A DNA stretch of 64,000 bases, taken from contig NZ_BCYZ01000009.1 of the NCBI RefSeq assembly GCF_001598455.1, forward strand, positions 1-64,000. Reading direction: 5' to 3'. The translations under genes and the position numbers were made by a program. Under the pieces are notes generated by a model. That model was not told the origin of the DNA and made no database searches. It saw nothing but the letters and a program-made list of their open reading frames with translations. Below are positions 26,260 through 49,844 of the stretch, one piece after another (the first letter of the stretch is position 1; the number at the start of each line of letters is the position of its first letter). The stretch comes from Sphingomonas pruni NBRC 15498 (GTDB lineage Bacteria > Pseudomonadota > Alphaproteobacteria > Sphingomonadales > Sphingomonadaceae).

Positions 26260-26274
26260 AGCGGGATCGGCAGC

Positions 26275-27060
26275 TCAGACGCGGCTGTCGCCCTCGACCA
26301 GTTGTTCGGAAATCGCCTCCGCCGCCTTGCGCACCAACGCTGCCGTCTCGCGCGCGGACACCGACGGCAGGATCTTCTTCAGATAGGGAACGGTGAGCGC
26401 CGCCGCCGCGCTGCCGCCGCGCATAATGGGTGCGGAAATGTCGGTGATCCCGGCGACGAAATGGCTTGGTGTGTGTTCGACATGGCGTTCAGCGATTTCG
26501 TCGGCGCGGGCGCGCAACGCCGCCATCTCGGCTTCGGGAATCGGCGGGTCGAACATCGCTTCCCAACGGCGGCGCACGTCCTTGGGCTGATGCGCGTAGA
26601 GGATCATCCCCGACGCCGTCTGCATCAGCGGTCGGCGATAACCGACGCGGACCGAAAAACCGATCTGCTCGCCCGATTCCATCCGCGCCACGACCACCAT
26701 CTGCCCGCGCGTATGCAGCGCGAGGTGACACGACTGGCCGATCTCGAGCGCGAGCTGACGCATCACCGGTAAGGCGATTTCGATCAGGTTGGCGGTGCGC
26801 GGCTGCTGCATGCCGAGTGAGAACAGCCGGTCGGTCAGGCGATAGCCGTCCTGGGCCGGATCCTGTTCGATATAGCCGCGCTGTTCGAGGACCTGTACCA
26901 TGCGGAACAGCTCGCCGTGGGAGCGGCCCAGCGCATGGACGATTTCGGTCAGCGTCATCGCGTCGGTTTGGGCCGCGAGCAATTCCAGCACGTCCAGGCC
27001 CTTTTCGAGCGCCGGTGCGCGGTACCGCGAATCTCCGCCGCGATCCTCATCGTCAGCCAT
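26275..27060 (-). CDS. IclR-family regulator of the fucose genes
   Basis: This 261-aa protein has a winged helix-turn-helix at about residues 15-75 (APALEKGLDVLELL, LTEIVHALG, LFRMVQVLEQRGYIEQD) followed by the IclR effector-binding domain. It sits between the dehydrogenase and the divergent FucP permease, and the 181-base gap before FucP carries an A/T-rich direct repeat. Control of the fucose genes by fuconate or a later intermediate is likely but inferred. An IclR family member is a common regulator of such sugar-acid pathways. Confidence 0.88.
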   Translation of the reverse strand: MADDEDRGGDSRYRAPALEKGLDVLELLAAQTDAMTLTEIVHALGRSHGELFRMVQVLEQRGYIEQDPAQDGYRLTDRLFSLGMQQPRTANLIEIALPVMRQLALEIGQSCHLALHTRGQMVVVARMESGEQIGFSVRVGYRRPLMQTASGMILYAHQPKDVRRRWEAMFDPPIPEAEMAALRARADEIAERHVEHTPSHFVAGITDISAPIMRGGSAAAALTVPYLKKILPSVSARETAALVRKAAEAISEQLVEGDSRV

Positions 27061-27125
27061 CGTTAACGTCCTCGCCCCTTCATGGCTGTCTTTGGCATGA
27101 TGGCTTCCTCGCGTCGATCCATCTA

Positions 27126-27166
27126 TCTTTATTCACTAGTAAAAAACATCTTTATCAGCAGAAAAA
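27126..27166. promoter_or_regulatory. Imperfect direct repeat in the IclR-FucP promoter gap
   Basis: TCTTTATTCACTAGTAAAAAA at 27126-27146 (split here as TCTTTATTCAC and TAGTAAAAAA) is followed 23 bases on by TCTTTATCAGCAGAAAAA at 27149-27166. The stretch is strikingly A/T-rich for this genome and lies midway between divergent starts, so it may hold IclR sites and promoter elements. No clean IclR palindrome is visible. Confidence 0.4.
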
Positions 27167-27241
27167 TTGCTCTAGGTTCTCAGCTATAGATCGAAGCGAA
27201 TACGCTCGTATTGTGCTGCGGATCGACGGGAGGGGATTGGT

Positions 27242-28507
27242 ATGAGCGACGAACCTCCGGTGCCGACGACACGCCTGCTGCCTTTTGCGCTGATCGTCGC
27301 ATTGTTCTTCCTGTGGGGAATCGCAAACAATCTCAACGATATCCTGATTGCCCATTTCAAGAAGCTGTTCGTTCTCGGCGACCTGCAAGCCGGTCTCGTC
27401 CAATCGGCCTTCTATCTAGGATATTTCTGCCTCGCCATTCCGGCCGCCTTGTTCATGCGCGCTTACGGCTATCGCGCTGCGGTGTTGCTCGGCCTGTGCT
27501 TCTACGGCGCCGGTGCATTATTGTTCTGGCCGGCAGCCAGCCTGCAGAGCTATCCGTTCTTCCTGGCCGCCTTGTTCGTCATCGCCAGCGGCCTTTCGTT
27601 CCTCGAAACGTCGGCCAACCCGCTCATCGCACGGCTCGGACCGCCGGAGAGCGCGGCGCGCCGGCTCAACCTCGCCCAGGCGTTCAACCCGCTCGGCTCG
27701 ATCACCGGGATCGTCATCGGCAGCCAGTTCATCCTGTCAGGCGTAGCGCACAGCCCCGCCGAGATCGCCGCGATGCTGCCGGACGTACTGGCCCGGTGGC
27801 GCGCGGGCGAAGCCGCTGCAGTCCAGCTGCCCTATCTGCTGATCGGCCTCGGCGTGCTCGCCTGGGCAGTGCTGATCCGGTTGACCGCTTTTCCCGTGAT
27901 CGCGACGCAGCGCGACGTCGAGGAAGATGTCGGCGCCCTCGACGATTTTCGCGCCCTGCTCCGCGATCCTCGCATCCTGCTCGGCGTTCTGGCGCAGTTC
28001 TTTTATGTCGGCGCGCAGGTTGGCGTGTGGAGCTTTCTCATCCGTTACGCCGAAGTCGCCGTGCCCGGCACGCCCGAGCGCGTCGCGGCGGGCTATCTCA
28101 CCATCTCGCTCGTCACCTTCATGGCGGGGCGGTTCGTCGGCTCGGCGCTGATGGGCGTAGTGCGCGCGCCGTCGCTCCTCGCCATTTTCGCGGTGGCGGG
28201 CGCCTTGCTGTGCCTCTTCGCGACGATCGCGGGAGGCATGGGCGGTATCATTGCGCTGATCGCGTCGAGTTTCTTCATGTCGATCATGTATCCGACCATC
28301 TTCGCCGAGACGGTCGAAGGCCTCGGAGCGCGGACCAAATCTGCCGCCGCGCTGCTGGTCATGGCCATTATCGGAGGAGCGGTCTTTCCCGCAGTGATGG
28401 GGTTGGTGTCCGATCGTACCGGGTCGATGGTCAACGCGATGGCTGTGCCGGCCTGCTGCTTCCTCGTCGTGCTCGCCTTCGCATCAAGGGTGCGGAAGCC
28501 TGTGTGA
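27242..28507 (+). CDS. fucP: L-fucose:H+ symporter
   Basis: This 421-aa major facilitator superfamily protein of the FucP type has about twelve hydrophobic segments. It keeps the two acidic residues linked to transport in Escherichia coli FucP: the Asp in NNLNDILIAHF (Asp33) and the Glu in FLETSANP (Glu122). It brings L-fucose across the inner membrane. GGGAGGGG precedes the ATG. Its stop overlaps the GTG of the fuconolactonase as GTGA. Other sugars of the same subfamily, such as galactose or glucose, cannot be ruled out, but the neighbours favour fucose. Confidence 0.9.
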   Translation: MSDEPPVPTTRLLPFALIVALFFLWGIANNLNDILIAHFKKLFVLGDLQAGLVQSAFYLGYFCLAIPAALFMRAYGYRAAVLLGLCFYGAGALLFWPAASLQSYPFFLAALFVIASGLSFLETSANPLIARLGPPESAARRLNLAQAFNPLGSITGIVIGSQFILSGVAHSPAEIAAMLPDVLARWRAGEAAAVQLPYLLIGLGVLAWAVLIRLTAFPVIATQRDVEEDVGALDDFRALLRDPRILLGVLAQFFYVGAQVGVWSFLIRYAEVAVPGTPERVAAGYLTISLVTFMAGRFVGSALMGVVRAPSLLAIFAVAGALLCLFATIAGGMGGIIALIASSFFMSIMYPTIFAETVEGLGARTKSAAALLVMAIIGGAVFPAVMGLVSDRTGSMVNAMAVPACCFLVVLAFASRVRKPV

Positions 28508-33410: not shown

Positions 33411-34724
33411 TCATCCGATCCTGATCGGCCTCGACCTGCTCAGAAAAAACAGGAAGATTGCCGCGATCAGGACCGATGACGCGCCCAGTCCAAAGAACGA
33501 TGTCGCCGGTATGACGCCCCAATAGGCACCCATTGCGCCGGCGAGCAGGCTGCCCAGGAACTTCGCGATATACCAGGCGCCCATCGCCATGGCCGCGACC
33601 TGAACGGGCGACAGCGCGCCGACCAGGGTCAGCCCTACCGGAATGACGAGCAATTCGCCGATGGTCAGCAGGACGAAATAGGCGGTCACCCATTCGACTC
33701 CGACCGGGCGGCCGGTCCTGGCGTTCAACGCCGCCGCCACTACCATCACTACCATCGACAGAGCGGCGATCGCGCAGCCCAGGCTCATCCGCGCCAACAG
33801 GTTCGCCGGTCCGTTGCGCGCGGCGCGCTTCGCCCAATGGCGCATCAGTAACGGCGTCAGGACGATGATCAGCAATGGGTTGATCGACTGAAACCAGGTC
33901 GCGGGAATTTCCAGGCGCTGACCGAACAGATCGACGCTGCGGTCGGTCTGGTGCTCGACCCATAGCGCGATGACGTTACCGCTCTGCTCGTACCCGATCC
34001 GAAACAGCACGACGACCGCGATGATCGCGACCAGCATGCGCAGATTGCCCCAATCCTTGCTGGTAAGCGCGATCCGCGCGCTGGTTTGGGTCTGCGATCG
34101 GCTGGGCGGGTCGGCCGGCAAGAGATGCCTGAAGCGGAGATAGATGACGAGCCCGGCGAACATCCCGACTCCCGCTGCGGCGAAACCCCAATGCCAGCCA
34201 TAGAGCTCGCCGAGCGTGCCGCACACCAAGGGTGCCAACAGGCCGCCGAGATTGATCCCCATATAATAAGCGCTGAACGCCTGGGCCTGGCGCGGATCGT
34301 CGTCGGCATAGAGCCCGCCCACTTGCACGGCGAGCGGCGGCATGAAGAGACCATTGCCCAGCGCGACCAGCGCCAGCGCCGGGAACAGCAACGGCTCGAA
34401 CGCCATGGCGAAATGGCCGCACATCATCAACACGGCGCCGGTCACCACGCTGCGCGTGCGCCCCAGCCAGCGATCGGAGATGATCCCGCCGAAAAAGGGG
34501 CTGAAAAAGGCCGCCGCCCCGTACGCGCCATAGATCAGCGACGACTTCGCCTGGCTGAAGCCGAGATGCTGGGTCATGTAATAGACCAACAGCGCTTGCA
34601 GGCCGAAATAGGAGAATTCGGCCCACATCTGCGTCATGAACAACACCGTCAGGCCCGGCGGATGGCCGAACAGCGCCTTTGGGCGAACCGCGGGTTCCAC
34701 GCCGGCCAGCGTCCCCGTGGCCAT
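33411..34724 (-). CDS. POT/PTR-family peptide:H+ symporter
   Basis: This 437-aa inner-membrane protein of the proton-dependent oligopeptide transporter type has about 12 or more membrane segments. The PTR2 signatures are present (WAEFSYFGLQALLVYY near residue 34 and FFGGIISDRWLGR near 77), as is a second-half NPLLIIVLTPL helix. The classical ExxERFxYY reads AEFSYFGLQALLVYY, so the proton-coupling ExxER is altered. It imports di- or tripeptides. It follows a serine hydrolase and a TonB receptor on the same strand after 70 bases and opposes a dipeptide epimerase, which together point to peptide scavenging. Confidence 0.87.
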   Translation of the reverse strand: MATGTLAGVEPAVRPKALFGHPPGLTVLFMTQMWAEFSYFGLQALLVYYMTQHLGFSQAKSSLIYGAYGAAAFFSPFFGGIISDRWLGRTRSVVTGAVLMMCGHFAMAFEPLLFPALALVALGNGLFMPPLAVQVGGLYADDDPRQAQAFSAYYMGINLGGLLAPLVCGTLGELYGWHWGFAAAGVGMFAGLVIYLRFRHLLPADPPSRSQTQTSARIALTSKDWGNLRMLVAIIAVVVLFRIGYEQSGNVIALWVEHQTDRSVDLFGQRLEIPATWFQSINPLLIIVLTPLLMRHWAKRAARNGPANLLARMSLGCAIAALSMVVMVVAAALNARTGRPVGVEWVTAYFVLLTIGELLVIPVGLTLVGALSPVQVAAMAMGAWYIAKFLGSLLAGAMGAYWGVIPATSFFGLGASSVLIAAIFLFFLSRSRPIRIG

Positions 34725-34794
34725 TACCGGACCCGCATCGTTTGACGACGGCGACCGAGCTCTTGCAACGGGTGGCGGCGATCAATTGCCATGC

Positions 34795-36807
34795 TCAGAA
34801 ATTCAGGCTCGGCGTCAGCGTCCGCATGTCGAACATCACCCAGACCAGGAACAGCGCGGACAGTGCCACGACTACCGCCCAGCCGGTCCTGAACCACCGG
34901 CTGTCAGGGCCGGTCGCAACCACCCGGACGTTCCAGATCGCAAGCCCCGTGCCGATGATCGCACCCAGCGACAGGAGCTGAAGTAGCCGCATCCAGATGT
35001 CGAGACGCCCGTCGAAATTGCCGACATCGCTGCTCAGCGCGGCAATCATCGCCATCCAGCCGGCCGCCACGATCACCATCAGCCAAGCCGTGAGCCGGCT
35101 CGCGCGGTAGAGCATCAGCGAGCGCTTCGCGATCGTCGGATGATAGCCATAGCGGCGGCGGGCCAGCGCCACGATCGGCCAGCCGAGCGCAGTAATCAGC
35201 ATGACTGCCAGCGCCGCCAGCAAAAGCGGCATGATCCAGCCGGCGTTCATCCCGGTCGATGCGGGGACGAAGAGGATGATCGGCGCAAACTCGGCCGGCG
35301 CGAACGCCGTCACCTTGCCGTCCTTGACCGCCGCGCCCAGGCGATCGGTTCCCCCGACTTCCTGCCATTGCCACGGCGCCACCTCCCGCCATTTCTTGGG
35401 CACACCGGCGGGATCGGTAAGGGCGGAAACGGTGATCGTATTGTCGTCGTTCAGCGACACGACGGGCTGGCCGATGAGATTGGCGATGCGCAGCCAGTTG
35501 GTCACCGAACCACGGCTGCTGACATAATTGCCGGCCATCGCGCGGCCATGTTCGGCCGCGGTGGGAAGAGTCGGCAGCGCCGGCGCCTTCTGCGGGAAGT
35601 AGCGGTCGGTGAAGCTGTCGAATATCCGCTGGCGCAGGACATGCGCCGCGCCGTCCTTACCCGCGCTGTTGAACGACAGATACAGCCCCACGCCCTTGTC
35701 GAGATAGAGATGCAGGTCGGAATGGAACCAGTCGGTATCGCCACCATGGCCGATGATGTTCAGCCCGTTGCGATCCTCGTGATAGAAGCCCAGCGCCATG
35801 CCCGGGAGGCCGGGGATGGGGGTGTTGGCGGTCGCATACATCAACGCCGCGGTCTTCCCGTCGAGCAGCGGATTGGTCGCGGACAGATGCGCGATCATGA
35901 ACTTGGCCATATCCGCGCCGCTCGATGACAAAGCGCCGGCCGGCGACAGCGGGATGATCTCATAGGGCTGAGGATCTTCCGAGCCACGGGCATAGCCGCT
36001 CGCGAGCAGTGGCCCGAGACTAGACGGCAAGGGTTGCACGAAGCTGGAGTGCGTCATGCCGAGCGGGGCGAAGATGTGGCGCTGCACATATGCCTCGAAC
36101 GGCTCGCCCGACACTCGCTGGACGATATAGCCGGCAAGTGACGCGCCATAGTTCGAATAGGACGCCGTGCTGCCGGGGGCGTAGATCCGCGCCGGCACCG
36201 ACCGCTTGAGCGCGGCATCGAGCGGCCGGTTATCGGCCAGCTTTGTGGCGATCAGATATTTCGCCGTTTCTTCGAACCCGGCGGTATGCGTCATCAGGTT
36301 GCGCAGCGTGATCGGCTTGCCGAAAGCGGGCGGAATCTTGAAATCGAGATAATCGTTAATGTCTCGATCGAGGTCGAGCTTGCCCGCCTGGACCTGTTGC
36401 ATGACCGCAGTCCAGGTGAAGAGCTTGGAGATCGAGCCGGGCCGAAACAGCGTGGTATCCGGGTCGACCGGCTTGCGCGTCTTCATATCGGCATAGCCAA
36501 AGCCGCGCTGGGTCAGTACCTGGCCGTCCTTGACCACGACGATGACCGCGCCGGCAATGTCGCCGGTATCGAGTCCGTAAGGGATCAATCCGTCGAGCCA
36601 GCTGTCGACATCGGCTTTGGTCAGGGTCGGCGCACCGGTCGCCGTCGCCAGCGCGGCCGTTTCCGCCTGGCCGCTTTTCACCGACGCGACCGGGCTGGCC
36701 GGGTTGAGCGTTGGCGTTTGCGCGGCGATCGGCACCGCCACCAGCAGAAATGACGAGAATACGGCCTTGAACAGGCGTGTCGGGCGGGCAATCCATCCGG
36801 TGCGCAT
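34795..36807 (-). CDS. Serine beta-lactamase/DD-peptidase-like hydrolase with C-terminal membrane segments
   Basis: This 670-aa protein starts with a signal peptide and a class C beta-lactamase-type domain. It has SISK (Ser125, Lys128), YSN (Tyr217, Asn219) and GHGG near residue 350. A beta domain follows, and at least three or four hydrophobic helices fill the last 170 residues, so the catalytic domain is held at the periplasmic face. Enzymes of this kind cut D-amino-acid peptides or act as peptidases; resistance to beta-lactams is not implied. Its ATG overlaps the receptor stop as TGATG, so it is co-translated with it. The context suggests processing of imported peptides before the POT transporter. 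Confidence 0.88.
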   Translation of the reverse strand: MRTGWIARPTRLFKAVFSSFLLVAVPIAAQTPTLNPASPVASVKSGQAETAALATATGAPTLTKADVDSWLDGLIPYGLDTGDIAGAVIVVVKDGQVLTQRGFGYADMKTRKPVDPDTTLFRPGSISKLFTWTAVMQQVQAGKLDLDRDINDYLDFKIPPAFGKPITLRNLMTHTAGFEETAKYLIATKLADNRPLDAALKRSVPARIYAPGSTASYSNYGASLAGYIVQRVSGEPFEAYVQRHIFAPLGMTHSSFVQPLPSSLGPLLASGYARGSEDPQPYEIIPLSPAGALSSSGADMAKFMIAHLSATNPLLDGKTAALMYATANTPIPGLPGMALGFYHEDRNGLNIIGHGGDTDWFHSDLHLYLDKGVGLYLSFNSAGKDGAAHVLRQRIFDSFTDRYFPQKAPALPTLPTAAEHGRAMAGNYVSSRGSVTNWLRIANLIGQPVVSLNDDNTITVSALTDPAGVPKKWREVAPWQWQEVGGTDRLGAAVKDGKVTAFAPAEFAPIILFVPASTGMNAGWIMPLLLAALAVMLITALGWPIVALARRRYGYHPTIAKRSLMLYRASRLTAWLMVIVAAGWMAMIAALSSDVGNFDGRLDIWMRLLQLLSLGAIIGTGLAIWNVRVVATGPDSRWFRTGWAVVVALSALFLVWVMFDMRTLTPSLNF

Positions 36808-39149
36808 CAGAATTCGACCCCCGCTGTAAGGCCTATCGTCCGCGGCCGAATGGTCGCGACGTCGATCAGGCCGGCATAACGCCCACCATAGGGACCGGCA
36901 TAGGTTTGTCCGCCCGAATTGGTGATATTTTTCGCGTAGATACTCAACGTTACCGGTTTCATTTCGATGCCCGCGCGCAGATCGACCGTGGCATAACCGT
37001 CCAGGATCAGGCGGTGGCCGAACGTGGCCTGATACGCGGCATCGAAATCCGCCGGCCGATCGCTGACCATCGAGACCGACCCGCCAACAAAGGCGTTGGT
37101 TTTGCCGCCGAGCGACCAGTCATAGTCCGCGGAAAGACTGGCGTTCCAGCGCGGTGCGTAGGGAAGCTGGTCTCCGTCCGACCCGCCGACCAGGATGTTC
37201 CCCTTGAGCGCGGTGTCATTGTAGGCGACCGACCCGAGCATGACCAAGCCCCGGATCGGTCGCAGCGTCAGCGTGACCTCGCCGCCATAGCTCTTGGCGC
37301 CCTCTCCATTGCCGTCCGCTGTGACCGGACCGATCGAGGTCTGGAATGTCGTCGTGATCTGGGTGTTCTTCCAGTCGAGATAATAAATGGAAGCGTCGAT
37401 GCCGAACGTCCGGTCTTGCGTCTCGGCGCGGACGCCCGCCTCGTAGCTGATCAGGGTGTCGGCCTTGAACTGCGCCGGATAATCGGCCGGAGCTCCCGGC
37501 GGGACGACATTGGGGCCGCCGGGCCGATAGCCCTTGGCGATGCGCGCGTAGATCGCGACCCGTTTGCTGATCTCGTATCGCGGCGACACCGACCAAGTCC
37601 ACACGCCTTCGGAGGACTTCCCGAGCAGCGTGCCGTCCGCGCCCTGGACGACGACGAAGCCCCCACCCAGGCTCTGGGACGTGCGCTGTTCATTGCGGCT
37701 GTACCGGATGCCGCCGGTGATATCGAAAGCGCTGGTCACGTGCCAGGTCGCACTCCCGAACCCGGCATATTCCTTATAGGTCGAGTCCAAGCTCGCGGTC
37801 AGGAAATGGTCAAAGGGAAAGGGCGCGGCGGGCACGCCCGGGCCGAGCAGGTCCTGCGGAATAGTGCCCGCTTCGGGCAGAAGGGCGCCGGTGGCCGGAT
37901 CGAAGGGCCGGTAGAGCTGGAAAATCCGGCCGGGTTCGCGGGTATAATACCCTCCGATCAGCCATTCGAATTTGTCCGACTTCGCCGAGGTCAGGCGGAT
38001 TTCCTGGGCGAACTTCTTCTGGCTGATGTTGGAAGGCTCGTCCGTGCCGAAGGGCGTGGTCGCGCCGTAAAAGGGACTGATGTCGCCCAGTTGGGGCGTC
38101 ACGTCGATATCCTCATGCTGGCGCAGCGTCGCGTAGCTGGTGACCGAGGTCAGCGCCACCGGCCCGAAATCATATTCGATCGTGCCCGAATACAGGCGGT
38201 AATCGACATTGTTGCGTTCGGGCAGCGTTTGATAGCGAAGCAGGCCGGTGCCCGTCGCCCCGGTGAAGGGATCCGCCGTAATCGGCGACAGCGTCGCCGG
38301 ATCGACGTCGATCGTGTCGCGGCCATGCGCGCGGATGTTCTGTGCGATCGCGGTCAACCGGATCGAGAAACGGTCGCTTGGCTTGAACAGCAGGGAGGCG
38401 CGGCCGCCATAGCTGTCGGAATAATTGGTGTTGTGGGCGGGAATGCCGACGCTGTCGATATAGCCCGGCGTGCGGCGATAAAAACCGCTCGCGCGGAACG
38501 CCAGCGTGTCGCTGAGCGGCACGTTGATCACGCCGTTGCCCGACCAGCCGGTGCCGCCGCCATCGACCGTTTCCACGCCGGCCTGGGCGCGCAGCGAGAA
38601 CCGGTCGAACTTGGGCGGAGTGGTGACATATTTGAGCAAGCCGCCCAGCGAATTCGCGCCGTACAGCGTTCCCTGCGGGCCGCGCAGCACCTCGATGCGC
38701 TCGACGTCGAAGGAATCGATGTCGCCCGCCAGATGTGCCGCATTGGTCTGGCTGGTGCTCGATCCGAACGGCGTGTCGTCGATATAGACGGAAACGGTCG
38801 GGCTGGCGCCGCCGGTATTGATGCCGCGCAGGATGATGCGCGATTCGCCCGCATTCTGCTGCTGGATGCTGAAACCGGGAACGAGTGACGCATAGTCGAG
38901 CAAGGTGGTGGCGTGGCGCTGCTCGAGCACCTGGCTCGACACGACGGTGATCGACTGCGGAACGTCGATCAAATTCTGGCTGCGCTTCTGGGCGGTGACG
39001 ATGATGTCGTCGTCGAAATTCGCGGTACCGCTTGTCTGTGGTTGCCCGGTAGCGACCGGAGCGTCGCTTTGCGCCTGCGCGGCGGGCGCCCATATCGCCA
39101 TCGCGGCACCGGCCAGCCACAAAGTTCTTGATCGAGCCACGATCGCCAT
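36807..39149 (-). CDS. TonB-dependent receptor of the peptide cluster
   Basis: This 780-aa outer-membrane receptor has a signal peptide ending AAQAQ and a TonB-box-like DDDIIVTAQKR. Its plug contains DVPQSITVV and RGPQGTLYGANSLGG, and the barrel ends in GVEF. The ATG at 39149 has AAGGGG seven bases upstream; a TTG two codons earlier is less likely. It heads a minus-strand unit with the serine hydrolase and the POT transporter, and is divergent from an XRE-cupin regulator. It probably imports peptides, possibly murein fragments. The plug style is that of siderophore-like receptors, so a different ligand cannot be excluded. Confidence 0.9.
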   Translation of the reverse strand: MAIVARSRTLWLAGAAMAIWAPAAQAQSDAPVATGQPQTSGTANFDDDIIVTAQKRSQNLIDVPQSITVVSSQVLEQRHATTLLDYASLVPGFSIQQQNAGESRIILRGINTGGASPTVSVYIDDTPFGSSTSQTNAAHLAGDIDSFDVERIEVLRGPQGTLYGANSLGGLLKYVTTPPKFDRFSLRAQAGVETVDGGGTGWSGNGVINVPLSDTLAFRASGFYRRTPGYIDSVGIPAHNTNYSDSYGGRASLLFKPSDRFSIRLTAIAQNIRAHGRDTIDVDPATLSPITADPFTGATGTGLLRYQTLPERNNVDYRLYSGTIEYDFGPVALTSVTSYATLRQHEDIDVTPQLGDISPFYGATTPFGTDEPSNISQKKFAQEIRLTSAKSDKFEWLIGGYYTREPGRIFQLYRPFDPATGALLPEAGTIPQDLLGPGVPAAPFPFDHFLTASLDSTYKEYAGFGSATWHVTSAFDITGGIRYSRNEQRTSQSLGGGFVVVQGADGTLLGKSSEGVWTWSVSPRYEISKRVAIYARIAKGYRPGGPNVVPPGAPADYPAQFKADTLISYEAGVRAETQDRTFGIDASIYYLDWKNTQITTTFQTSIGPVTADGNGEGAKSYGGEVTLTLRPIRGLVMLGSVAYNDTALKGNILVGGSDGDQLPYAPRWNASLSADYDWSLGGKTNAFVGGSVSMVSDRPADFDAAYQATFGHRLILDGYATVDLRAGIEMKPVTLSIYAKNITNSGGQTYAGPYGGRYAGLIDVATIRPRTIGLTAGVEF

Positions 39150-39180
39150 CGCCAAACCCCTTGAAATGCTCCGGCATCAT

Positions 39181-39211
39181 GAACACTGTTTCATAATTAG
39201 CAACTGTTTTC
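39181..39211. promoter_or_regulatory. TGTTTC-type repeat sites between the receptor and XRE regulator
   Basis: GAACACTGTTTC at 39181-39192 has the GAA/TTC ends of a perfect palindrome found after the regulator gene (39931-39942). A second TGTTTTC lies 18 bases on at 39205-39211. The repeated half-site suggests binding by the adjacent XRE-cupin protein. Confidence 0.45.
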
Positions 39212-39273
39212 TCGAACGTGCACGGCGGTTCCCTGAGGCAGAGCTTTGCGCTAGGCGGGGGCGGGGAGAGACT

Positions 39274-39927
39274 ATGACCAAGACCGCTCGCGACAATCAT
39301 CCCGGCCGTCTGCTCCGTGCGGCACGCATCGAGCAGGGGCTGACGCTCAGAGCGCTTGCGACGCGACTGGACATGCCGTTTTCGACGCTGTCCAAGCTCG
39401 AGAACGGCAAAATGGCGATGACCTACGACAAATTGGTCAGGCTCGCACAGGCTCTCGGTCTTGATCTGGGCAGCCTGGTGGCCGGGGCGGTTCCGGCGGA
39501 AAAGCCGCCCGCCGCGCTCGGCCGGCGCAGCGTGTCTCGCGCCGGCGAATGGCAGGGCGCCACTACCGAACGTTACACGCATCTCTATCCGGCCGGCGAC
39601 TTGCTCGACAAGATGATGGTGCCGATCATCATCGATGTAAAAGCCCGCAATATCGACGATGTCGGCGGCCTGATCCGCCACTCCGGTGAGGAATATCTGC
39701 ACGTATTGTCGGGCGCGATGGAACTGCATTCGGATCTCTACGCGCCGCTGCCGCTGGCTCAGGGCGATTCGGTCTATTTCGACAGCGGAATGGCGCATGC
39801 CTATGTGCGAGTCGGCGATGAACCCTGCCGAGTGCTGTCGGTTTGCGCCGGGCCGGGCATGCAGCGCTTCGCCGAACTGGCTTCGCGGAGTGCCGATCCC
39901 GCCGCGGAAGACGTTTCAGGGCACTAG
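39274..39927 (+). CDS. XRE-family regulator with cupin sensor domain
   Basis: This 217-aa protein has a lambda-repressor-like helix-turn-helix at about residues 10-68 (LRALATRLDMPFSTLSKLENGK). A cupin domain follows at about 130-200 (HSGEEYLHVLSGAMELH, YFDSGMAHAYV). This fusion commonly senses a small amino-acid or amine ligand. The ATG at 39274 gives the family-typical N-terminus. It lies between the divergent receptor operon and the dipeptide epimerase gene, and repeated TGTTTC sites flank it on both sides, so it probably controls both units. Confidence 0.88.
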   Translation: MTKTARDNHPGRLLRAARIEQGLTLRALATRLDMPFSTLSKLENGKMAMTYDKLVRLAQALGLDLGSLVAGAVPAEKPPAALGRRSVSRAGEWQGATTERYTHLYPAGDLLDKMMVPIIIDVKARNIDDVGGLIRHSGEEYLHVLSGAMELHSDLYAPLPLAQGDSVYFDSGMAHAYVRVGDEPCRVLSVCAGPGMQRFAELASRSADPAAEDVSGH

Positions 39928-39930
39928 ATG

Positions 39931-39959
39931 GAAACATGTTTCTTATATTGAAACATTGC
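39931..39959. promoter_or_regulatory. Palindromic operator and promoter of the epimerase gene
   Basis: GAAACATGTTTC at 39931-39942 is a perfect 12-base palindrome. TATATT follows at 39944-39949 and a third half-site GAAACA lies at 39951-39956. It is placed four bases after the XRE-cupin stop and about 40 bases before the epimerase start, as expected for a repressor site over the -10 region. Confidence 0.6.
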
Positions 39960-39982
39960 TGAATTCGTGTGATGTGGCGGTC

Positions 39983-40981
39983 ATGACGACCGCCCTGACG
40001 CTCAGCCATCGCCGCGATGCCATGGCATTTCGCGAACCCTTCCGGATCTCGGGCTATCTCTTCGAGTCGATGCCGGCGGTGATCGCGACGATCTCTGACG
40101 GAGACGTCACAGGGCGAGGAGAGGCGGCGGGGGTCTATTATCTGGGCGACGATCCCGACCATATCGAACGCGAATTGGAGCGGTGCCGGGCACAGGTCGA
40201 AGCCGGAATCGACCGCGAGGAGTTACGTGGTCTGCTCCCGCCGGGAGGGGCGCGCAACGCGCTCGATTGCGCATTGTGGGAACTGGAGTCGCTCCGCAAG
40301 AATACGCCCGTCTGGAAGCTTGTCGGTGTGGCTCCGCCGAAGCCTCTGGTCACGACGTTCACGCTTCCGGCGGAAGATCCGGCTGAGATCCTTCGCAGGC
40401 TCGCCGACTTGCCGGCGTTGAAGGCTCTCAAGCTGAAGTTAGAGGGCGATCTCGCCGGCGATTCCGAGCGGGTCCGAGCGGTGCGCGCGGCGCGACCGGA
40501 TGTCTGGCTCGGTGTGGATGCCAATCAGGGTTATGGCGGTGACGATCTCGACGAGCTGGTCGCGATGCTCGTCAGGGAAAAGGTGCTGTTGCTGGAGCAA
40601 CCCGTTCGTCGCGGCGAAGAGGCTTTGCTCGACAATTGGCAGTCACCGATCCCGGTGGCGGCCGACGAGAGTATCCAGGACTTGGTCGAACTAGAAGCCC
40701 AGCACGCTCGCTTCCAGGTTTTGAACATCAAGCTCGACAAATGCGGCGGCCTGACCGAAGCGCTGATGATGGCCAAGCGCGGGCGACAGCTCGGGATGAA
40801 GATCATGGTCGGCAACATGGCGGGCGCCACGCTTTCGACCGCCCCCGCCTTCGTCCTTGCTCAGCTGTGCGATGTCGTCGATCTCGACGGTCCCTGGTTC
40901 GTCGCTGACGATCCACTCGCGGCGAGCCTCTATGCCGACGGCGAGATCATGCTGCCTGCAAACCTTTGGGGCGCGGGCTAG
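39983..40981 (+). CDS. Dipeptide epimerase (L-Ala-D/L-Glu epimerase type)
   Basis: This 332-aa muconate-lactonizing-enzyme-type enolase-superfamily protein has the two-base 1,1-proton-transfer set of dipeptide epimerases. These are KLK (Lys150, Lys152), the ligands Asp179 (VDANQG), Glu205 (LLEQPV) and Asp228 (ADES), and the opposite-face Lys250 (NIKLDK). The likely reaction is epimerisation of L-Ala-D-Glu from murein to L-Ala-L-Glu for use as food. The ATG at 39983 lacks a strong Shine-Dalgarno. The flanking POT transporter, peptidase-like hydrolase and receptor support a peptide-scavenging role; specificity for another dipeptide remains possible. Confidence 0.83.
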   Translation: MTTALTLSHRRDAMAFREPFRISGYLFESMPAVIATISDGDVTGRGEAAGVYYLGDDPDHIERELERCRAQVEAGIDREELRGLLPPGGARNALDCALWELESLRKNTPVWKLVGVAPPKPLVTTFTLPAEDPAEILRRLADLPALKALKLKLEGDLAGDSERVRAVRAARPDVWLGVDANQGYGGDDLDELVAMLVREKVLLLEQPVRRGEEALLDNWQSPIPVAADESIQDLVELEAQHARFQVLNIKLDKCGGLTEALMMAKRGRQLGMKIMVGNMAGATLSTAPAFVLAQLCDVVDLDGPWFVADDPLAASLYADGEIMLPANLWGAG

Positions 40982-41233: not shown

Positions 41234-41467
41234 GCATCTCTCCTCCGGTGCAGCGTCCACGCACGCGTGAACGATCGACCCGCCCCATTCGACGCAAGCC
41301 GTTGGCCCGCGGTTCTTCGGGTAAGGCGGTGCGCCGGCATATCAGCGAAAAACTACCCGTTTCTTCCATGAGAATCTCGTAAGTCTGGCGCACAACGGCC
41401 GACGGGCGGCATCGCCCTTTTGATAATCATCCTGGCTTATAATAGTCGATCGGCAAGGAGATTGCTG

Positions 41468-42445
41468 ATGATGGATGGGCGGGGGCCGATTCTCGCGATG
41501 ACGATGCTGGTCGCGCTGGCGGGATGCGCATTGCGTGCAGGCGTGGAGCCCGCAGTCGCGATCGCGCCAATCGCGGTATCGGGCAGCACCGCGACGATCG
41601 AGATCGCGCCCGTCCTGCTGGCGGCGCGCGATCTGTATCCGGGCGCGATGGTCAGCAATGGCGGCATCCCCAATCTGTTCGAAGCGGGCGGCACTGCCGA
41701 TATCGCCACGCATGCCGAGACCCAGGCCTTGCGCTATTCGGTCGCGCATCCCGACCTCCGTATCATCCTGACCGTTACCGAAGGCCGCTACCGCATCGTC
41801 GCGCGTCGTTCTGCCGGGATCCGGCGGATCGCCGATCTCAAGGGCAAGAGGATCGCGACGCTGGCGACGACGTCAGCCGGCTATTTCCTCGCGCGCATGC
41901 TCGCGCAGGAGGGATTGAGCTTCGCCGACATCACGCCCGTGCGCATCTCTCCGCTCGAGGGTATCCCCGCTGCGCTCGCACGGCGCGAGGTCGATGCGGT
42001 GGCGATCTGGGAGCCGCATGGCGGTAATGCCGACCGGGCGCTTGGCGACGATATCGTCATCTTCTCCGGCGATGGCGTCTATCGCGAATTGTTCAACCTC
42101 AATACCAACGCGGCGAATCTCGCCGACCCGGCCAAGCGCCGGCGAATCACCGCATTCGTCCGGGCGGTGATCGCCGCAAGCGCGCGGATTCGTCGCGACC
42201 CGGCGCCGGCCCAGGCTCTCGTCGCGGCGACTGCGGGCTTTGGTGCGGCGGAAGTAGCGCACGCCTGGCCGACACTCTCCTTTCCGGCGGCACTGCCTGC
42301 GGATCTGCTCGATGAACTAGTCGCGGAGGAGAAGTGGCTGGCCACGCAGGACAAACGTCCCGCGCGGTCACGCGAAGCGCTGTCGCGACTGATCGATTCC
42401 AGCATCTATAACGAGGCGGCGGCGATGGGGCCGATCGCGGAGTGA
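41468..42445 (+). CDS. Orphan lipoprotein solute-binding protein (NMT1/SsuA-like)
   Basis: This 325-aa periplasmic-binding-protein fold has a lipobox, ALAGC, with Cys20 as the lipidated residue. Its two lobes show family motifs such as GGIPNLFEAGGTADIATHAE (20 residues, near 60), DLKGKRIATL and REVDAVAIWEPHGG. Proteins of this type bind sulfonates, nitrate-like or thiamine-precursor ligands for ABC transporters. No permease or ATPase gene lies nearby. GGAG precedes the double ATG at 41468. The next gene is a TonB receptor 229 bases on, so a shared uptake role is conceivable. Confidence 0.82.
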   Translation: MMDGRGPILAMTMLVALAGCALRAGVEPAVAIAPIAVSGSTATIEIAPVLLAARDLYPGAMVSNGGIPNLFEAGGTADIATHAETQALRYSVAHPDLRIILTVTEGRYRIVARRSAGIRRIADLKGKRIATLATTSAGYFLARMLAQEGLSFADITPVRISPLEGIPAALARREVDAVAIWEPHGGNADRALGDDIVIFSGDGVYRELFNLNTNAANLADPAKRRRITAFVRAVIAASARIRRDPAPAQALVAATAGFGAAEVAHAWPTLSFPAALPADLLDELVAEEKWLATQDKRPARSREALSRLIDSSIYNEAAAMGPIAE

Positions 42446-42490
42446 TACGTAATAGCGAAGACGGTAAATCAGCTAGGCTGCGATTTTAGG

Positions 42491-42519
42491 TTGTCAGCCT
42501 GTCTTATGTGGCATAAACA
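42491..42519 (+). promoter_or_regulatory. Sigma-70-like promoter of the TonB receptor
   Basis: TTGTCA at 42491-42496 and TAAACA at 42514-42519 are separated by 17 bases, giving a leader of about 150 bases before the receptor ATG at 42675. No other gene is visible in the 229-base gap. Confidence 0.5.
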
Positions 42520-42674
42520 ACTGGCGTTCGTTAATCCGGAATGGATTGCGGACCCATAGGAAGCACCGGGCGTCACCCGGCGCGGATTGGAAACAACAAG
42601 CAAGCATCTTGCGATGCAGCGGGAGCAACGGCGCCAAAGCCGGCCTCGCAATTGCCCGGAGAGGGGAGGCTGAT

Positions 42675-45587
42675 ATGGCAGTTCTTATGAAACGTGGTCC
42701 CGCATCATGGCTGCAGCGCATGATGGTCACCACCGCGCTCACCACTGCCACTTTTGCAGGCGGCGCCGCTTTCGCGCAGACCAGCCCGACGCCGGCCAGC
42801 ACGGCGCAAGCCGAGCCGGCTCAGGCTGCCACCGATAACAAGGCCGAGACGCAGGAAGGCGAAATCGTCGTCACTGCGTCGCGTACCGCCACCAATGGCC
42901 TCCAGGCACCGACGCCGACCCAGGTGGTCGGCGCCGAAGTGATCTCGAAGCAGGGTGCCACCACCGTCATGGAGGTGCTCAACCAGAATCCGGCGTTCAA
43001 GGCGACACGATCGCCAGGCGCCAACGCCACCAATACCTCGAGCCCCGCGCAGGCCACCGCCGATCTGCGCGCTCTGGGTGGCCAGCGCACGCTGGTGCTG
43101 GTCAATCAGTCGCGCGTCGTGCCCTTCGCGCCGGCCAGCAACCTCGGCGTGCCGACCACCACCGACCTCAACCTGTTCCCGACGCTGATGATCGAGCGCG
43201 TCGATGTCGTCACCGGCGGCGCCTCGGCGCTGTACGGTTCGGATGCCGTCTCGGGCGTCGTCAACATCGTCATGAAGAAGAAGTATCAGGGCGTCGAAGT
43301 CACCGCGCAGGCGGGTGTTTCCCAGCTAGGCGATTATGGCACTCGCCGCATCGGCTTCATCGCCGGTACCAGCTTCAATGGCGATCGGGGCCATATCGTC
43401 CTCAGCGGCGACTATTCGGACAATGACGGCGTCGGCGACATCTACACCCGCGACTGGGGTCGCGACGAATATATGATCGTCAGCAATGGCCAGCGGACGA
43501 CTCCCGGCACGCCTGGCTTCGGCCAGCCGGCCTTCATCCTGGCCAAGAACGTCCATAATAATCTCGGCGCGGGCGGCGTCATCATCAGTTCCATTCCCGG
43601 GCTGACCAACATGACGTTCAATCCGGACGGTTCGATCCGTCCGTTCCAGCGGGGCTCGATCTCTGGCGGCTCGACGATGATCGGTGGCGAAGGCGGCTCG
43701 ATCATCACCGGCACCGCGTTGGTTCCCAAGGTCGAGCGCGAGACCGCCTATGGCAGCATCTATTATGATTTTTCGGACTCGCTGACCGGCTATATCGAAG
43801 GAGGATATTCGCGCTCCGTCGGGATCCTCGATGGCGTTCCGATCCGCCTGTCCAGCCAGGTGATCCGTCGCGACAACCCCTTCATTCCGGCGCAGGTCCT
43901 CGCCTTGCTGCCGGCGACGACGCAAAGCTTCAACATCAGCCGGATCGGCATCGATATCGGCATCAATCGCTACGAAATCACCAACGAGACGCCGCACGGC
44001 ACCGTCGGTTTGCAAGGTAAGCTCGGCGGGTCGTGGAAATGGGATGCGCACGCATCCTATGGCATCAATTACTATTCCTCTGCGACCTTTAACAACCCGG
44101 TCACCGCCAAGCTGGGCTACGCGATCGACGCGGTTCGCGACAGCTCCGGCAATATCGTCTGCCGCGGCGTTCGCGACGGCGTCGCCGCCGCCGCCGGTTG
44201 CCAGCCGCTCAACCTGTTCGGCGAGGGCAACACCACTGCGGCCGCGCGCAATTATATCTGGGGCGAAGGTCTCGCCAAGGTGAAGTACGACCAGTTCACC
44301 ACCGCCGCCAACATCGTCGGCGAGCCCTTTTCGACCTGGGCGGGTCCGGTGTCCGTGGCGTTCGGCGGCGAATATCGCCGCGAAACCGAAAAGCTGACCG
44401 CCGATGCGGTGGGCGCCAACAACGGCTTCCTCACCGCAGGCAACGCGGTGCCCTATGCGGGCGCATTCAGCGTCAAGGAGGGTTATGCCGAGGCGACCGT
44501 CCCTCTGGCTAAGGGTCTGCCGGCCCTCCACAATCTGAGCGTCAACGGCGCCTTCCGCTACGCCGATTACAGCACCGTCGGCGGCCAGACCGCGTGGAAA
44601 GCGGGCGCGGTGTGGGAACCGGTCGACGGACTGATCTTCCGCGTCGCGCGCTCGCGCGACATCCGGGCGCCTGCGATCAACGAACTCTATAGCCCGGGCA
44701 GCAACGTCACCAACGCGGTGACGATGGTGGTCGACGGCGTCACCAAGAGCCCGGTGATCCCGCAGAACACCAGTATGGGCAATCCCAAGGTCGGGCCCGA
44801 ATTCTCGAAGACCTTCACGGTCGGCGCGGCCTATCGCGGTCGCGGCGCGCTGCGCGGTCTCGGCTTCTCGGTCGACTATTACAATATCAAGATCGACGAC
44901 GCGATCACCAACCTGTCGACGGCGAACATCGCATCGTTATGCAGTGCGGGCGAAGCCTATTTCTGCAACCTGTTCACCTATGGGCCCGATCTCTCCACTC
45001 CCAACCCGAACGATCGGATTCATACCGCGCTGAATGCGGGCTCGCTCAATGTCGGCGCCTTCGCTCAGAAGGGCATCGACATGACCCTGACCTACGGCAC
45101 GTCGCTCGGTTTTCTGGGCTCGGGCGGCCGCGGCAGCATCGCCGCGAGCGGCACCTACGTCCTCCACGCGCTGGTCGATTCGGGCACCGGCGCCGCGCCG
45201 ATCGATCGCGCCGGGGAGAATGGCTGGGCCAATCTCGGCGCGATCCCGCATTTCCGGGGCAATCTGTCGACGACCCTGGGCACCAATGCGTGGGAACTGA
45301 CGCTGCAGACGATCTTCATCAGTAAGGGCGTCCAGGATGTGACCTACAATACGTTGCCGAGCAACACGATCAACGACAACAGGGTGCCGGCGGTTACCTA
45401 TTTCAACCTGTTCGGAAAGATCTTCGCCGGAGAGAATAAGAAGTTCGAATTCTTCTGGGCGGTCAACAATCTGTTCGACAAGGATCCGCCGCCCACCCCG
45501 TATATTATCCTCAACGGCCCGGTGAACGGTCAATATTACGACAAGGTCGGCCGCGCCTTCATGTTCGGAGCGCGTGCGCGCTTCTGA
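42675..45587 (+). CDS. TonB-dependent receptor
   Basis: This 970-aa outer-membrane receptor has a signal peptide ending GAAFAQ and a TonB-box-like GEIVVTASR. The plug contains LRALGGQRTLVLVNQSR and GSDAVSGVVNIV, and the barrel ends ARARF. The overall form matches sphingomonad receptors of the 'TonB-dependent receptor plug, large barrel' group, often for oligosaccharides or aromatic compounds; the ligand is unknown. GAGGGGAGG precedes the ATG. It has its own promoter-like site and a perfect terminator, so it is a single-gene unit. The preceding lipoprotein binding protein is the only functional hint. Confidence 0.9.
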   Translation: MAVLMKRGPASWLQRMMVTTALTTATFAGGAAFAQTSPTPASTAQAEPAQAATDNKAETQEGEIVVTASRTATNGLQAPTPTQVVGAEVISKQGATTVMEVLNQNPAFKATRSPGANATNTSSPAQATADLRALGGQRTLVLVNQSRVVPFAPASNLGVPTTTDLNLFPTLMIERVDVVTGGASALYGSDAVSGVVNIVMKKKYQGVEVTAQAGVSQLGDYGTRRIGFIAGTSFNGDRGHIVLSGDYSDNDGVGDIYTRDWGRDEYMIVSNGQRTTPGTPGFGQPAFILAKNVHNNLGAGGVIISSIPGLTNMTFNPDGSIRPFQRGSISGGSTMIGGEGGSIITGTALVPKVERETAYGSIYYDFSDSLTGYIEGGYSRSVGILDGVPIRLSSQVIRRDNPFIPAQVLALLPATTQSFNISRIGIDIGINRYEITNETPHGTVGLQGKLGGSWKWDAHASYGINYYSSATFNNPVTAKLGYAIDAVRDSSGNIVCRGVRDGVAAAAGCQPLNLFGEGNTTAAARNYIWGEGLAKVKYDQFTTAANIVGEPFSTWAGPVSVAFGGEYRRETEKLTADAVGANNGFLTAGNAVPYAGAFSVKEGYAEATVPLAKGLPALHNLSVNGAFRYADYSTVGGQTAWKAGAVWEPVDGLIFRVARSRDIRAPAINELYSPGSNVTNAVTMVVDGVTKSPVIPQNTSMGNPKVGPEFSKTFTVGAAYRGRGALRGLGFSVDYYNIKIDDAITNLSTANIASLCSAGEAYFCNLFTYGPDLSTPNPNDRIHTALNAGSLNVGAFAQKGIDMTLTYGTSLGFLGSGGRGSIAASGTYVLHALVDSGTGAAPIDRAGENGWANLGAIPHFRGNLSTTLGTNAWELTLQTIFISKGVQDVTYNTLPSNTINDNRVPAVTYFNLFGKIFAGENKKFEFFWAVNNLFDKDPPPTPYIILNGPVNGQYYDKVGRAFMFGARARF

Positions 45588-45606
45588 TCCGCCGCCGACA
45601 AACGAA

Positions 45607-45636
45607 AGGGCGCCCCACCCGAGGGGCGCCCTTTTT
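45607..45636 (+). terminator. Rho-independent terminator of the receptor gene
   Basis: AGGGCGCCCC and GGGGCGCCCT pair perfectly around the loop ACCCGA and are followed by TTTTT. It starts 20 bases after the receptor stop. Confidence 0.92.
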
Positions 45637-45661
45637 GCATTATGGGCAGAAAGGCTTTTCA

Positions 45662-46003
45662 GTGGGCGATATCGTGCGGGTGGTCCTGGTTCCGCAGGGT
45701 GCTCAGGATGCCGCCGATCGGCAGATCATGCTCGATCTGACGGTCGACGCCGGGGGCGCGGCGGTCGGCCCGTTTCCCGCCTTTGGCCGCATCGGCGATT
45801 TCAAACGGCCCGAGACGCTGTTTCCGTTCACGCTGATGGGCGACGGGCGGCTCGATTACGGCGCGCATGCCGGTCCTGCGCCGGCGGAGGACAAGCTAGC
45901 GATCCGCAATGCGGTGCTGACCCCCGGGGCCGAAATCCTGCGAACCGTCGGCGACCGCAGCGAGGCGTTCGTGATTGCGGCGGTGACGTCGCTCACTGCT
46001 TGA
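45662..46003 (+). CDS. Hypothetical protein
   Basis: A 113-aa frame beginning at a GTG (GDIVRVVLVPQG). It has beta-rich predicted content, including the segments RQIMLDLTVDAGG, FGRIGDFKRPETLFPFTLMG and EDKLAIRNAVLTPG. No signal peptide, and I recognise no family. The start is uncertain: a TTG nine codons upstream sits in the terminator T-tract, and no good Shine-Dalgarno is seen. It converges on the SnoaL-like gene with nine bases between stops. Confidence 0.55.
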   Translation: MGDIVRVVLVPQGAQDAADRQIMLDLTVDAGGAAVGPFPAFGRIGDFKRPETLFPFTLMGDGRLDYGAHAGPAPAEDKLAIRNAVLTPGAEILRTVGDRSEAFVIAAVTSLTA

Positions 46004-46012
46004 CGCGACGGC

Positions 46013-46459
46013 TCAGCTGAAGTTGAGCTGGTCGCCGCCGCGGAACAGATTCTTGAGTTCGCGGAGCGTGCACAGCCAGCGCCCCTCGGTTTCGTCCCAG
46101 CGAAACGTCTCGGTCGCCTGGCTGATCCGGGTGGGCACGCGGCTTTCGAGCGGCGCCTCGCCATCGGCAGCCCATAGCAGCATGAACCATGTCGCGGTGG
46201 CACCGCCCTGGTCGTCGAATTCGGCGCGGAAATTGGTGAAGGCATGGATTGAGACGCGCGCGCCGCGGCCTTCGCGCCAACTGTAGAAACCCTGGATCGC
46301 CTCGCGTCCCTCGAGCTTGAGCCCGCCCGAGCGATAGACGGCCTCCGGGGCATAATAGTCGCTCGCCTGGCGGCCCCAATTATTGTCAACGTCATGCCAG
46401 AAATCGGCGAGGCCCATTTCGAGCTCGGCGGTGGCGATGGCGCGCTCGCGACGATTCAT
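46013..46459 (-). CDS. SnoaL-like (NTF2-superfamily) protein
   Basis: This 148-aa protein has the cone-shaped NTF2-like fold pattern: helical LADFWHDVDNNWG, then YYAPEAVYR, GREAIQGFYSWRE and several beta strands (SIHAFTNFRAEF, TATWFMLLW). Such proteins are small isomerases, lyases or hydroxylase partners in aromatic and steroid pathways. Its ATG overlaps the stop of the amidohydrolase gene as ATGA. It is the last gene of a transporter-amidohydrolase-SnoaL operon. The precise reaction is unknown. Confidence 0.82.
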   Translation of the reverse strand: MNRRERAIATAELEMGLADFWHDVDNNWGRQASDYYAPEAVYRSGGLKLEGREAIQGFYSWREGRGARVSIHAFTNFRAEFDDQGGATATWFMLLWAADGEAPLESRVPTRISQATETFRWDETEGRWLCTLRELKNLFRGGDQLNFS

Positions 46460-47253
46460 GGGATGTGGCTCCGTATGTCGAAATAAAGGTCGAGTGCAGT
46501 GGCGTCGATCGCCCGGCGGGTTGCCGCGTCGGGGACGAGGCGATGATACAAAGCCAGCGTGTCGGCATAGCTGGTATCCGCCTCATGGTTCACGAACGGC
46601 GCGTCGCTGCCCCATAACAGGCGCTCCGGTCCCGCTTCGGCGAGCAAGCGCGCGGCGCATTCGCTGGCAATGGCAGGTGGCAGGCGGAAGCCCGCCGAAA
46701 TCTTGACCCAGGTCCGGCCACCGGCCACCGCGCGAAGCAGCGCGTCGGTGCCGGCGCGGCGCTCGCCCTCGTCGCGCGACGGGACGCCAAAATGATCGAC
46801 CACCAGCGGCACGCCTGCGAGGTGCGGCAGTAGCGCCGGCAATTGCGCGCTGCCGGCGAGCAACTCGACATGCAGCCCGCAGTCGGTGATCCGATTCAGG
46901 AAGCCGCGCCATGGCTCGTTCGCCAGGTCGGGAAGATCGGCAAGCCGCCGCCAGGTCAGCCGCACCCCGACCACGCCTTGCTCGGCCAGTGCCCGCAACT
47001 GCTCGGCGCTGGTCTCCGGCGTGGCCAGCACCGTCGCGCGCAGCCGGGGATGCGCCGCCAGCGCCGCGAGCGTATAGGCGTTGTCGTCATCGAACAGACT
47101 GGCCGCCGCGATCACTCCGCGGCCGATGCCATGAGCGTCGAGATCGGCAAGCCACGCTTCGACCGGATAGTCATAGTCGGGCCGCGAATGCGCGTTCGCC
47201 GCGAACGGCATTCCCCGGGTAAAGACATGGGCATGGGCATCGACGGCCGGCAC
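46456..47253 (-). CDS. LigI-like amidohydrolase
   Basis: This 265-aa amidohydrolase_2 family protein resembles 2-pyrone-4,6-dicarboxylate hydrolase. It has DAHAHVF at the N-terminus, VVDHFGVP near residue 152 and GSDAPF near 218. It should hydrolyse a lactone or a C-C/ester bond in an aromatic ring-cleavage route. The GTG at 47253 lies seven bases after the transporter stop. A second member of the family lies at the other end of this cluster (62,884), so the two may act on successive or alternative lactones. Confidence 0.83.
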   Translation of the reverse strand: MPAVDAHAHVFTRGMPFAANAHSRPDYDYPVEAWLADLDAHGIGRGVIAAASLFDDDNAYTLAALAAHPRLRATVLATPETSAEQLRALAEQGVVGVRLTWRRLADLPDLANEPWRGFLNRITDCGLHVELLAGSAQLPALLPHLAGVPLVVDHFGVPSRDEGERRAGTDALLRAVAGGRTWVKISAGFRLPPAIASECAARLLAEAGPERLLWGSDAPFVNHEADTSYADTLALYHRLVPDAATRRAIDATALDLYFDIRSHIP

Positions 47254-47260
47254 GGTCGTT

Positions 47261-49814: not shown

Positions 49815-49844
49815 GCCGGCGACACCCACTTAGGAGAAGACACG

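Follow-up and report, generated by a model that had tools for sequence, protein, structure and literature searches.

The closest described relatives of the system analyzed here come from several settings. Bacillus subtilis ykf is a murein-peptide operon. ClbP, which functions in colibactin maturation, is an S12 peptidase of the periplasm that is D-specific and carries membrane helices. The genes of the mlr microcystin-degradation cluster follow the order mlrC-mlrA-mlrD-mlrB (PMC12474180, excerpt). A lipopeptide that induces Lip3 and Lip7 is also cleaved by them at its DL-amide bonds (PMC13188892, excerpt of a commentary), and the DgcN-DgcA D-glutamate pathway has been put to use in PMC10845958 (excerpt). 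We compared these systems with a five-gene locus of Sphingomonas pruni NBRC 15498 that lies at positions 33411-40981 of contig NZ_BCYZ01000009.1. "The window" below denotes the whole analyzed stretch of 64,000 nucleotides, positions 1 to 64,000 of this contig, in a genome of 4.48 Mb across 168 contigs. Near relatives of the locus were found in Sphingomonas asaccharolytica, S. mali, and one Sphingomonas metagenome-assembled genome (MAG). With moderate confidence, we read the locus as a regulon for the use of D-amino-acid-containing peptides with a neutral or hydrophobic side chain at the residue to be inverted.

From the gene content, conservation, catalytic residues, a loop difference, and predicted folds, all observed here, we infer the transport, cleavage, and regulatory steps of the following route, as well as its substrate. 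A TonB receptor would bring D-containing oligopeptides into the periplasm, where a membrane-anchored S12 hydrolase would cut D-L bonds and leave fragments ending in a C-terminal D-residue. The resulting dipeptides would pass through a POT transporter into the cytoplasm. There, the epimerase would convert the C-terminal D-residue into its L-form, letting ordinary peptidases finish the degradation. Both divergent units would be controlled by an XRE-cupin protein. Most relatives may have a second route in addition, via an M19 dipeptidase and a DgcN-like acetyltransferase, and in some also a deacylase-like amidohydrolase. The features of the locus are as follows.

33411..34724, minus strand: POT/PTR2 peptide symporter, 437 residues (PF00854, 160 bits, cut-off 27; TIGR00924, 237 bits, cut-off 130)
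34795..36807, minus strand: membrane-anchored S12 serine hydrolase, 670 residues (PF00144, Beta-lactamase, 212 bits)
36807..39155, minus strand: TonB-dependent receptor (barrel PF00593, 122 bits; plug PF07715, 83 bits)
39274..39927, plus strand: XRE-cupin regulator, 217 residues (HTH_3, 49 bits; Cupin_2, 50 bits)
39938..39954, no strand: candidate operator, inverted repeat GTTTC-N7-GAAAC, lying between the regulator and epimerase genes
39983..40981, plus strand: enolase-superfamily (MR_MLE) dipeptide-epimerase-like enzyme, 332 residues (MR_MLE_C, 81 bits; MR_MLE_N, 28 bits)

All five genes exceeded their Pfam cut-offs, and the sequence-only reading that had placed them side by side was thus borne out. 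They form two divergent units, receptor-hydrolase-POT on the minus strand and regulator plus epimerase on the plus strand. The reported TGATG overlap of receptor stop and hydrolase start was found at minus strand 36809-36805, and 70 bases separate the hydrolase stop from the POT start. The epimerase starts at ATG 39983, a small correction to the earlier coordinates. For the receptor the called start is TTG 39155, with an in-frame ATG two codons downstream.

Conservation was assessed by a GTDB genome scan using the hydrolase alone, and the best 80 of 591 relatives were taken as the 80 loci. Genes were counted by tblastn, and gap lengths were measured between tblastn matches. The counts are lower bounds, because only 61 of the 80 loci reach at least 20 kb. 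The loci span Sphingomonadales, Nitrospirillum, a Caulobacteraceae MAG, Steroidobacter, Lysobacter and allies, and two Verrucomicrobia MAG contigs. The epimerase was present in 64 of these hydrolase-anchored loci, the XRE-cupin regulator in 62, a DgcN-like DUF1611 gene in 58 (53 of them together with the epimerase), the TonB receptor in 52, an M19 dipeptidase in 39, and an N-acyl-amino-acid deacylase-like amidohydrolase in 30. When present, the epimerase was mostly encoded on the hydrolase strand (53/64), in 45 cases within about 230 bases; in the other 11 (L079-L086 and L088-L090) it was divergent from the hydrolase as in the window. A count in 149 genomes of the same family gave a cluster-type epimerase within 15 kb of 23 of the 26 hydrolase places, i.e. 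those scoring 460 bits or more. The grouping exceeds chance, and the gene set is real and conserved.

Further neighbors were recorded. A membrane protein of 379 residues that has some ten hydrophobic segments and matches neither Pfam nor NCBIfam (e.g. L118:18763-19875) was present in 53 of the 80 loci. It was found in 36 clusters without POT and may be an alternative importer where POT is absent. A gene of the Glu/Leu/Phe/Val-dehydrogenase family (352-475 residues) was carried by 8 of 92 loci, in six of the eight adjoined by an Lrp-type regulator. The best NCBIfam match of the one dehydrogenase scanned was tryptophan dehydrogenase (275 bits, below the cut-off of 600). These dehydrogenase neighbors fit, weakly, hydrophobic or aromatic products.

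The hydrolase carries the catalytic motifs S125xxK128, Y217SN, and H354GG, and the catalytic positions were invariant in 38 aligned sequences. Its N-terminus is a hydrophobic helix followed by the catalytic domain, and hydropathy analysis placed C-terminal membrane helices at residues 522-553, 561-593, 603-632, and 638-660. The AlphaFold model (predicted local distance difference test score, pLDDT, 88.9) shows the catalytic domain, a beta domain at about 426-515, and four membrane-length helices. When the model was compared with solved structures by VIA-align, 2qmi was matched with Z 40.1 and a root mean square deviation (rmsd) of 2.6 over 337 aligned residues. The DL-peptidase Lip3 of Paenibacillus (9sn1) was matched with Z 38.0 over 483 aligned residues, covering model residues 61-670. 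Among the matches listed, Lip3 was the only one to reach the C-terminus of the hydrolase. D-amino acid amidase, LACTB, AmpC, R61, and ClbP also matched, at Z 36-37. The modeled fold points to D-stereospecific peptidases in general. Like Lip3, the hydrolase combines an S12 catalytic domain containing SxxK, YxN, and HxG with a further C-terminal part, here one that aligns with that of Lip3, and D-L cleavage is predicted from sequence and model. ClbP (7mdc) likewise joins an S12 peptidase to membrane helices, but its alignment stops at model residue 595, and the window locus contains no biosynthetic genes. A DL-cut would leave a D-residue at the C-terminus, precisely the one inverted by dipeptide epimerases; hydrolase and epimerase may be linked in this way.

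The AlphaFold model of the epimerase (pLDDT 93.6) has the enolase fold. Its best fold match was 4gfi (Z 44.7, rmsd 1.6, 324 aligned residues), and dipeptide epimerases followed at Z 38-40. Residues Lys152 and Lys253 were invariant across 32 aligned sequences and are equivalent to Lys162 and Lys268 of YkfB, the catalytic lysines of that enzyme (PMC5808125). The window enzyme thus shares with YcjG (1jpd) and YkfB (1jpm/1tkk) the enolase fold, both lysines, and a DxD-type end of the barrel. As in ykf-type systems, genes for peptide uptake and a peptidase are nearby. In the window system, however, neither an LdcA nor an NlpC/P60 partner was seen, and a TonB receptor and an S12 DL-peptidase-like enzyme are present instead. 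Phylogenetic analysis placed 70 cluster epimerases in one clade (support 0.84), within which the window-type enzymes formed a sub-clade of 12 members (support 0.993), whereas Escherichia coli YcjG and 4gfi grouped with DgcA (support 0.83).

A difference was found in the substrate loop (20s loop). The window sequence ISGYLFES lacks a basic residue, and 64 of the 70 cluster epimerases had no Lys or Arg over this eight-residue stretch, whereas all 30 DgcA-type sequences had one (the count covers 30 of the 69 DgcA places over cut-off). Loop residue 24 was Gly in 99% of the cluster enzymes, whereas all 11 DgcA-type enzymes compared had Arg; loop residue 27 was Phe in 93% versus Lys in the DgcA type. 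A loop Arg is present in YkfB (Arg24), YcjG, and BT1313; that of YkfB presumably holds the Glu side chain. The basic residue is missing in the solved epimerases 3jva and 3q45, the latter bound to D-Ala-L-Val according to its title. The enzyme of Thermotoga maritima takes L-Ala-D/L-Phe, -Tyr, and -His (PMC5808125), and dipeptide epimerases without a preference for Glu therefore exist. Fold and catalytic residues fit a dipeptide epimerase, a predicted specificity, and the side chain handled is probably neutral or hydrophobic rather than that of glutamate.

Most clusters resemble the DgcN-DgcA pathway in pairing a DgcN-like gene with a DgcA-like epimerase, but both cluster proteins fall under the curated cut-offs (480 bits for DgcN, NF041892; 400 bits for DgcA, NF042940), and the Arg/Lys of the DgcA loop are replaced by Gly/Phe. 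The 149 same-family genomes contained 56 DgcN places, 22 of them over cut-off, and 108 DgcA places, 69 over cut-off. Each of the 22 over-cut-off DgcN genes had a DgcA-family neighbor within 305 bases (20 of these neighbors scored over 400), and none was within 15 kb of a hydrolase. In the same way, none of the 69 over-cut-off DgcA places was near a hydrolase place. Below the cut-off, 22 of 34 DgcN genes were near a hydrolase. All 22 epimerases counted near a hydrolase scored under the DgcA cut-off. At 21 of the 26 hydrolase places, an epimerase of less than 400 bits was accompanied by a DgcN of less than 480 bits. Two places, the window and G110, had the epimerase without DgcN, one had only a DgcN-like gene, and two had neither. 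The segregated pairings therefore show that the cluster carries its own paralogous pair, apart from the true DgcN-DgcA. A comparison of DgcN specificity positions, made with just one true DgcN, showed divergence but gave no specificity residues.

The window type has neither a DgcN-like acetyltransferase nor an M19 dipeptidase beside the cluster. A single DUF1611/DgcN gene was detected in the genome; it is located on contig C82, scored 516 bits, and forms a separate true pair with a DgcA of 428-430 bits at a distance of 63 bases. Among 12 locus genomes searched, six gave no DgcN at E<=1e-40. Five of these (L082, L083, L084, L085, and L086; four Nitrospirillum and one Hephaestia) carry a window-type epimerase, which must therefore manage without DgcN there, and the sixth (L087) had no epimerase in the DNA examined. 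A true DgcN was located elsewhere in the genome for L079, L080, L081, and L089, and a sub-cut-off DgcN for L079, L080, L090, and L156. This favors a window-type substrate that needs no acetylation, e.g. a dipeptide, although another acyltransferase could still serve.

The transporter connects the locus to the mlr cluster. ExxER is the proton-coupling motif of POT transporters. In the motif alignment, the window POT reads QMWAE at this position, and the Arg was absent from all 30 cluster POTs (the window, 28 loci, and MlrD) and present in the three other POTs of Sphingosinicella microcystinivorans. Judged by its motif, the window protein is an atypical POT; the Pfam model does not demand ExxER. 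Its best match in the S. microcystinivorans genome was MlrD (43%; 41% by BLAST), encoded at L170:8199-9485 in an mlr cluster that was identified by MlrC_C and Rce1-like domains and by gene order. Both clusters possess an S12 peptidase (MlrB in mlr) and a POT (MlrD), and mlr acts on a D-residue peptide, as predicted for the window system. Beside mlrB (L170:10978-13907) are genes for an M19 protein that reaches 47% identity to cluster M19 proteins and for an amidohydrolase that is 50% identical to one in L072, neighbors that also occur in related clusters. The two differ in that MlrB, which lacks membrane helices, shares just 28% identity with the window hydrolase, and in that L170 shows no epimerase beside mlr. 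No Pfam match to MlrA (Rce1-like) or MlrC (M81, MlrC_C) was obtained in the five genes or the scanned flanking proteins of the window.

The claim that the cluster has its own XRE-cupin regulator held: the gene is divergent, it is conserved as counted above, and in 51 of the 62 loci the hydrolase or receptor gene, in divergent orientation to it, lies no more than 700 bases away. No regulator was found by tblastn in the two Verrucomicrobia contigs. The window-type repeat GTTTC-N7-GAAAC is located just 3' of the regulator gene, ahead of the epimerase unit. One such site was present at the regulator 3' end, whose position in this comparison is approximate, in each of the 12 loci L079-L090. There was none in L091-L158, and a single shuffling of the 80 loci gave none either; the motif searched for was picked after the sites were seen. 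Because the repeat is conserved in non-coding DNA from Sphingomonas to Nitrospirillum, it is a candidate operator. No operator common to all cluster types emerged from 56 regions compared, each lying between the regulator and the first gene. The palindrome GAAACATGTTTC alone was rejected, with one match in the window versus 0.92 expected by chance, which is not significant.

Several findings weigh against a D-residue peptide regulon. The Lip3 match came with an rmsd of 4.7 and 20% identity to a protein of Gram-positive source. AmpC beta-lactamases, esterases, and DD-peptidases are among the hydrolase matches at Z 36-40, and the fold alone therefore does not settle which bond is cut. Six cluster epimerases (L074, L075, L102, L137, L148, and L158) do have a Lys or Arg in the loop, and the loop of the N-succinyl-Arg/Lys racemase 2p88 is rather similar to that of the window enzyme. 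The DLDGP motif is kept in DgcA as well and therefore cannot tell dipeptide from N-acyl substrates. Finally, POT was present in only 25 of the 80 loci, and 11 of the 80 contained the hydrolase without an epimerase or a DgcN-like gene in the DNA examined.

The sequence-only reading had proposed the scavenging of murein peptides. In such a scheme, the hydrolase would trim D-Ala, POT would import L-Ala-D-Glu, and the epimerase would make L-Ala-L-Glu. The S12 family does include DD-carboxypeptidases, with R61 among the fold matches (Z 36), the nearest characterized epimerase by sequence is the E. coli L-Ala-D/L-Glu epimerase, and an S66 (LdcA-type) peptidase is encoded elsewhere in the genome. The window epimerase, however, reached only 188 bits on the L-Ala-D/L-Glu epimerase model NF011708, far from the cut-off of 343, and lacks the basic loop residue of YkfB, YcjG, and BT1313, which speaks against the racemization of Ala-Glu. 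No LD-carboxypeptidase, NlpC/P60, or AmpD-type murein enzyme was among the conserved neighbor families scanned, and among the matches listed only Lip3 reached the C-terminus of the hydrolase. The excerpt of a Caulobacter murein-recycling paper (PMC13046382) contains no word beginning with "epimerase". Murein peptides are disfavored as the substrate, and we consider this scheme quite unlikely, although neither the fold nor the loop is proof of a substrate. What stands of the earlier proposal is a coherent conserved system from the outer membrane to epimerization that fits D-residue peptides; murein and Ala-Glu as its substrate are not supported.

Another explanation would make the epimerase a DgcA-like racemase of an N-acyl-D-amino acid supplied by the DgcN-type acetyltransferase on C82. 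The frequent DgcN-like gene of the clusters, mostly found with the epimerase, the true DgcN of this genome, and the best NCBIfam match of the epimerase (DgcA, 316-317 bits) are in line with it. That score is nevertheless below the cut-off of 400, the Arg/Lys residues of the DgcA loop are missing, the C82 DgcN has an over-cut-off DgcA of its own next to it, and five genomes with a window-type epimerase lack any DgcN, which leaves this explanation unlikely. Detoxification, i.e. a hydrolase that protects against D-residue peptide antibiotics while the other genes just dispose of the fragments, could be argued from Lip3, which is induced by the lipopeptide it cuts (PMC13188892, excerpt), and from D-stereospecific peptidases that confer resistance to nonribosomal peptides (PMC12516957, excerpt). 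The cluster itself, however, would let such peptides in through its dedicated outer-membrane receptor and through inner-membrane importers, and the dehydrogenase, acetyltransferase, and dipeptidase neighbors look catabolic; we regard it as highly improbable. That the genes are chance neighbors without a common role is a negligible prospect. Receptor, transporter, and amidohydrolase do differ from locus to locus, but the linkage counts already contradict chance, as the epimerase-hydrolase linkage is kept across Sphingomonas, Nitrospirillum, Lysobacter, and two Verrucomicrobia MAG contigs, and in most cases the regulator accompanies it.

Two other gene groups were noticed in the window. Positions 41420-57199 form an adjoining aromatic-degradation block with an NMT1-type binding protein, a TonB receptor, an aromatic-acid MFS transporter, an extradiol dioxygenase, a luciferase-like monooxygenase, and an amidohydrolase weakly similar to 4-sulfomuconolactone hydrolase. 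In L089, the NMT1-type binding protein and the TonB receptor of this block also adjoin the epimerase. At 12250-28507, a Cupin_8 protein, a TonB receptor, two tryptophan-halogenase genes, and an aldose epimerase are clustered with an MR_MLE dehydratase-like enzyme, an aldo-keto reductase, an IclR regulator, and an MFS transporter, which looks like a block for sugar or sugar-acid utilization.

The enzyme families concerned are each known. A search covering part of the literature found no paper on this gene set, and neither their combination nor the epimerase clade with its two proposed modes turned up there. Returning to the use of D-residue peptides, we tentatively suggest a widespread and distinct system for the catabolism of peptides whose D-residues are neutral or hydrophobic, with a new epimerase subfamily at its core. 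It would operate in two modes, one acting directly on dipeptides (the window type, without acetyltransferase) and one via N-acylation in parallel to DgcN-DgcA, and the mlr transporter and accessory genes would have been drawn from the same pool. D-Amino acids shield nonribosomal and cell-wall peptides from decay. If confirmed, the system would account for the way in which many bacteria of soil and water turn D-residue peptides into ordinary food, with a bearing on the decay of lipopeptide biocontrol agents in soil. It would also provide a testable substrate for an unassigned branch of the dipeptide-epimerase/DgcA family and hint at the origin of some microcystin-degradation genes.

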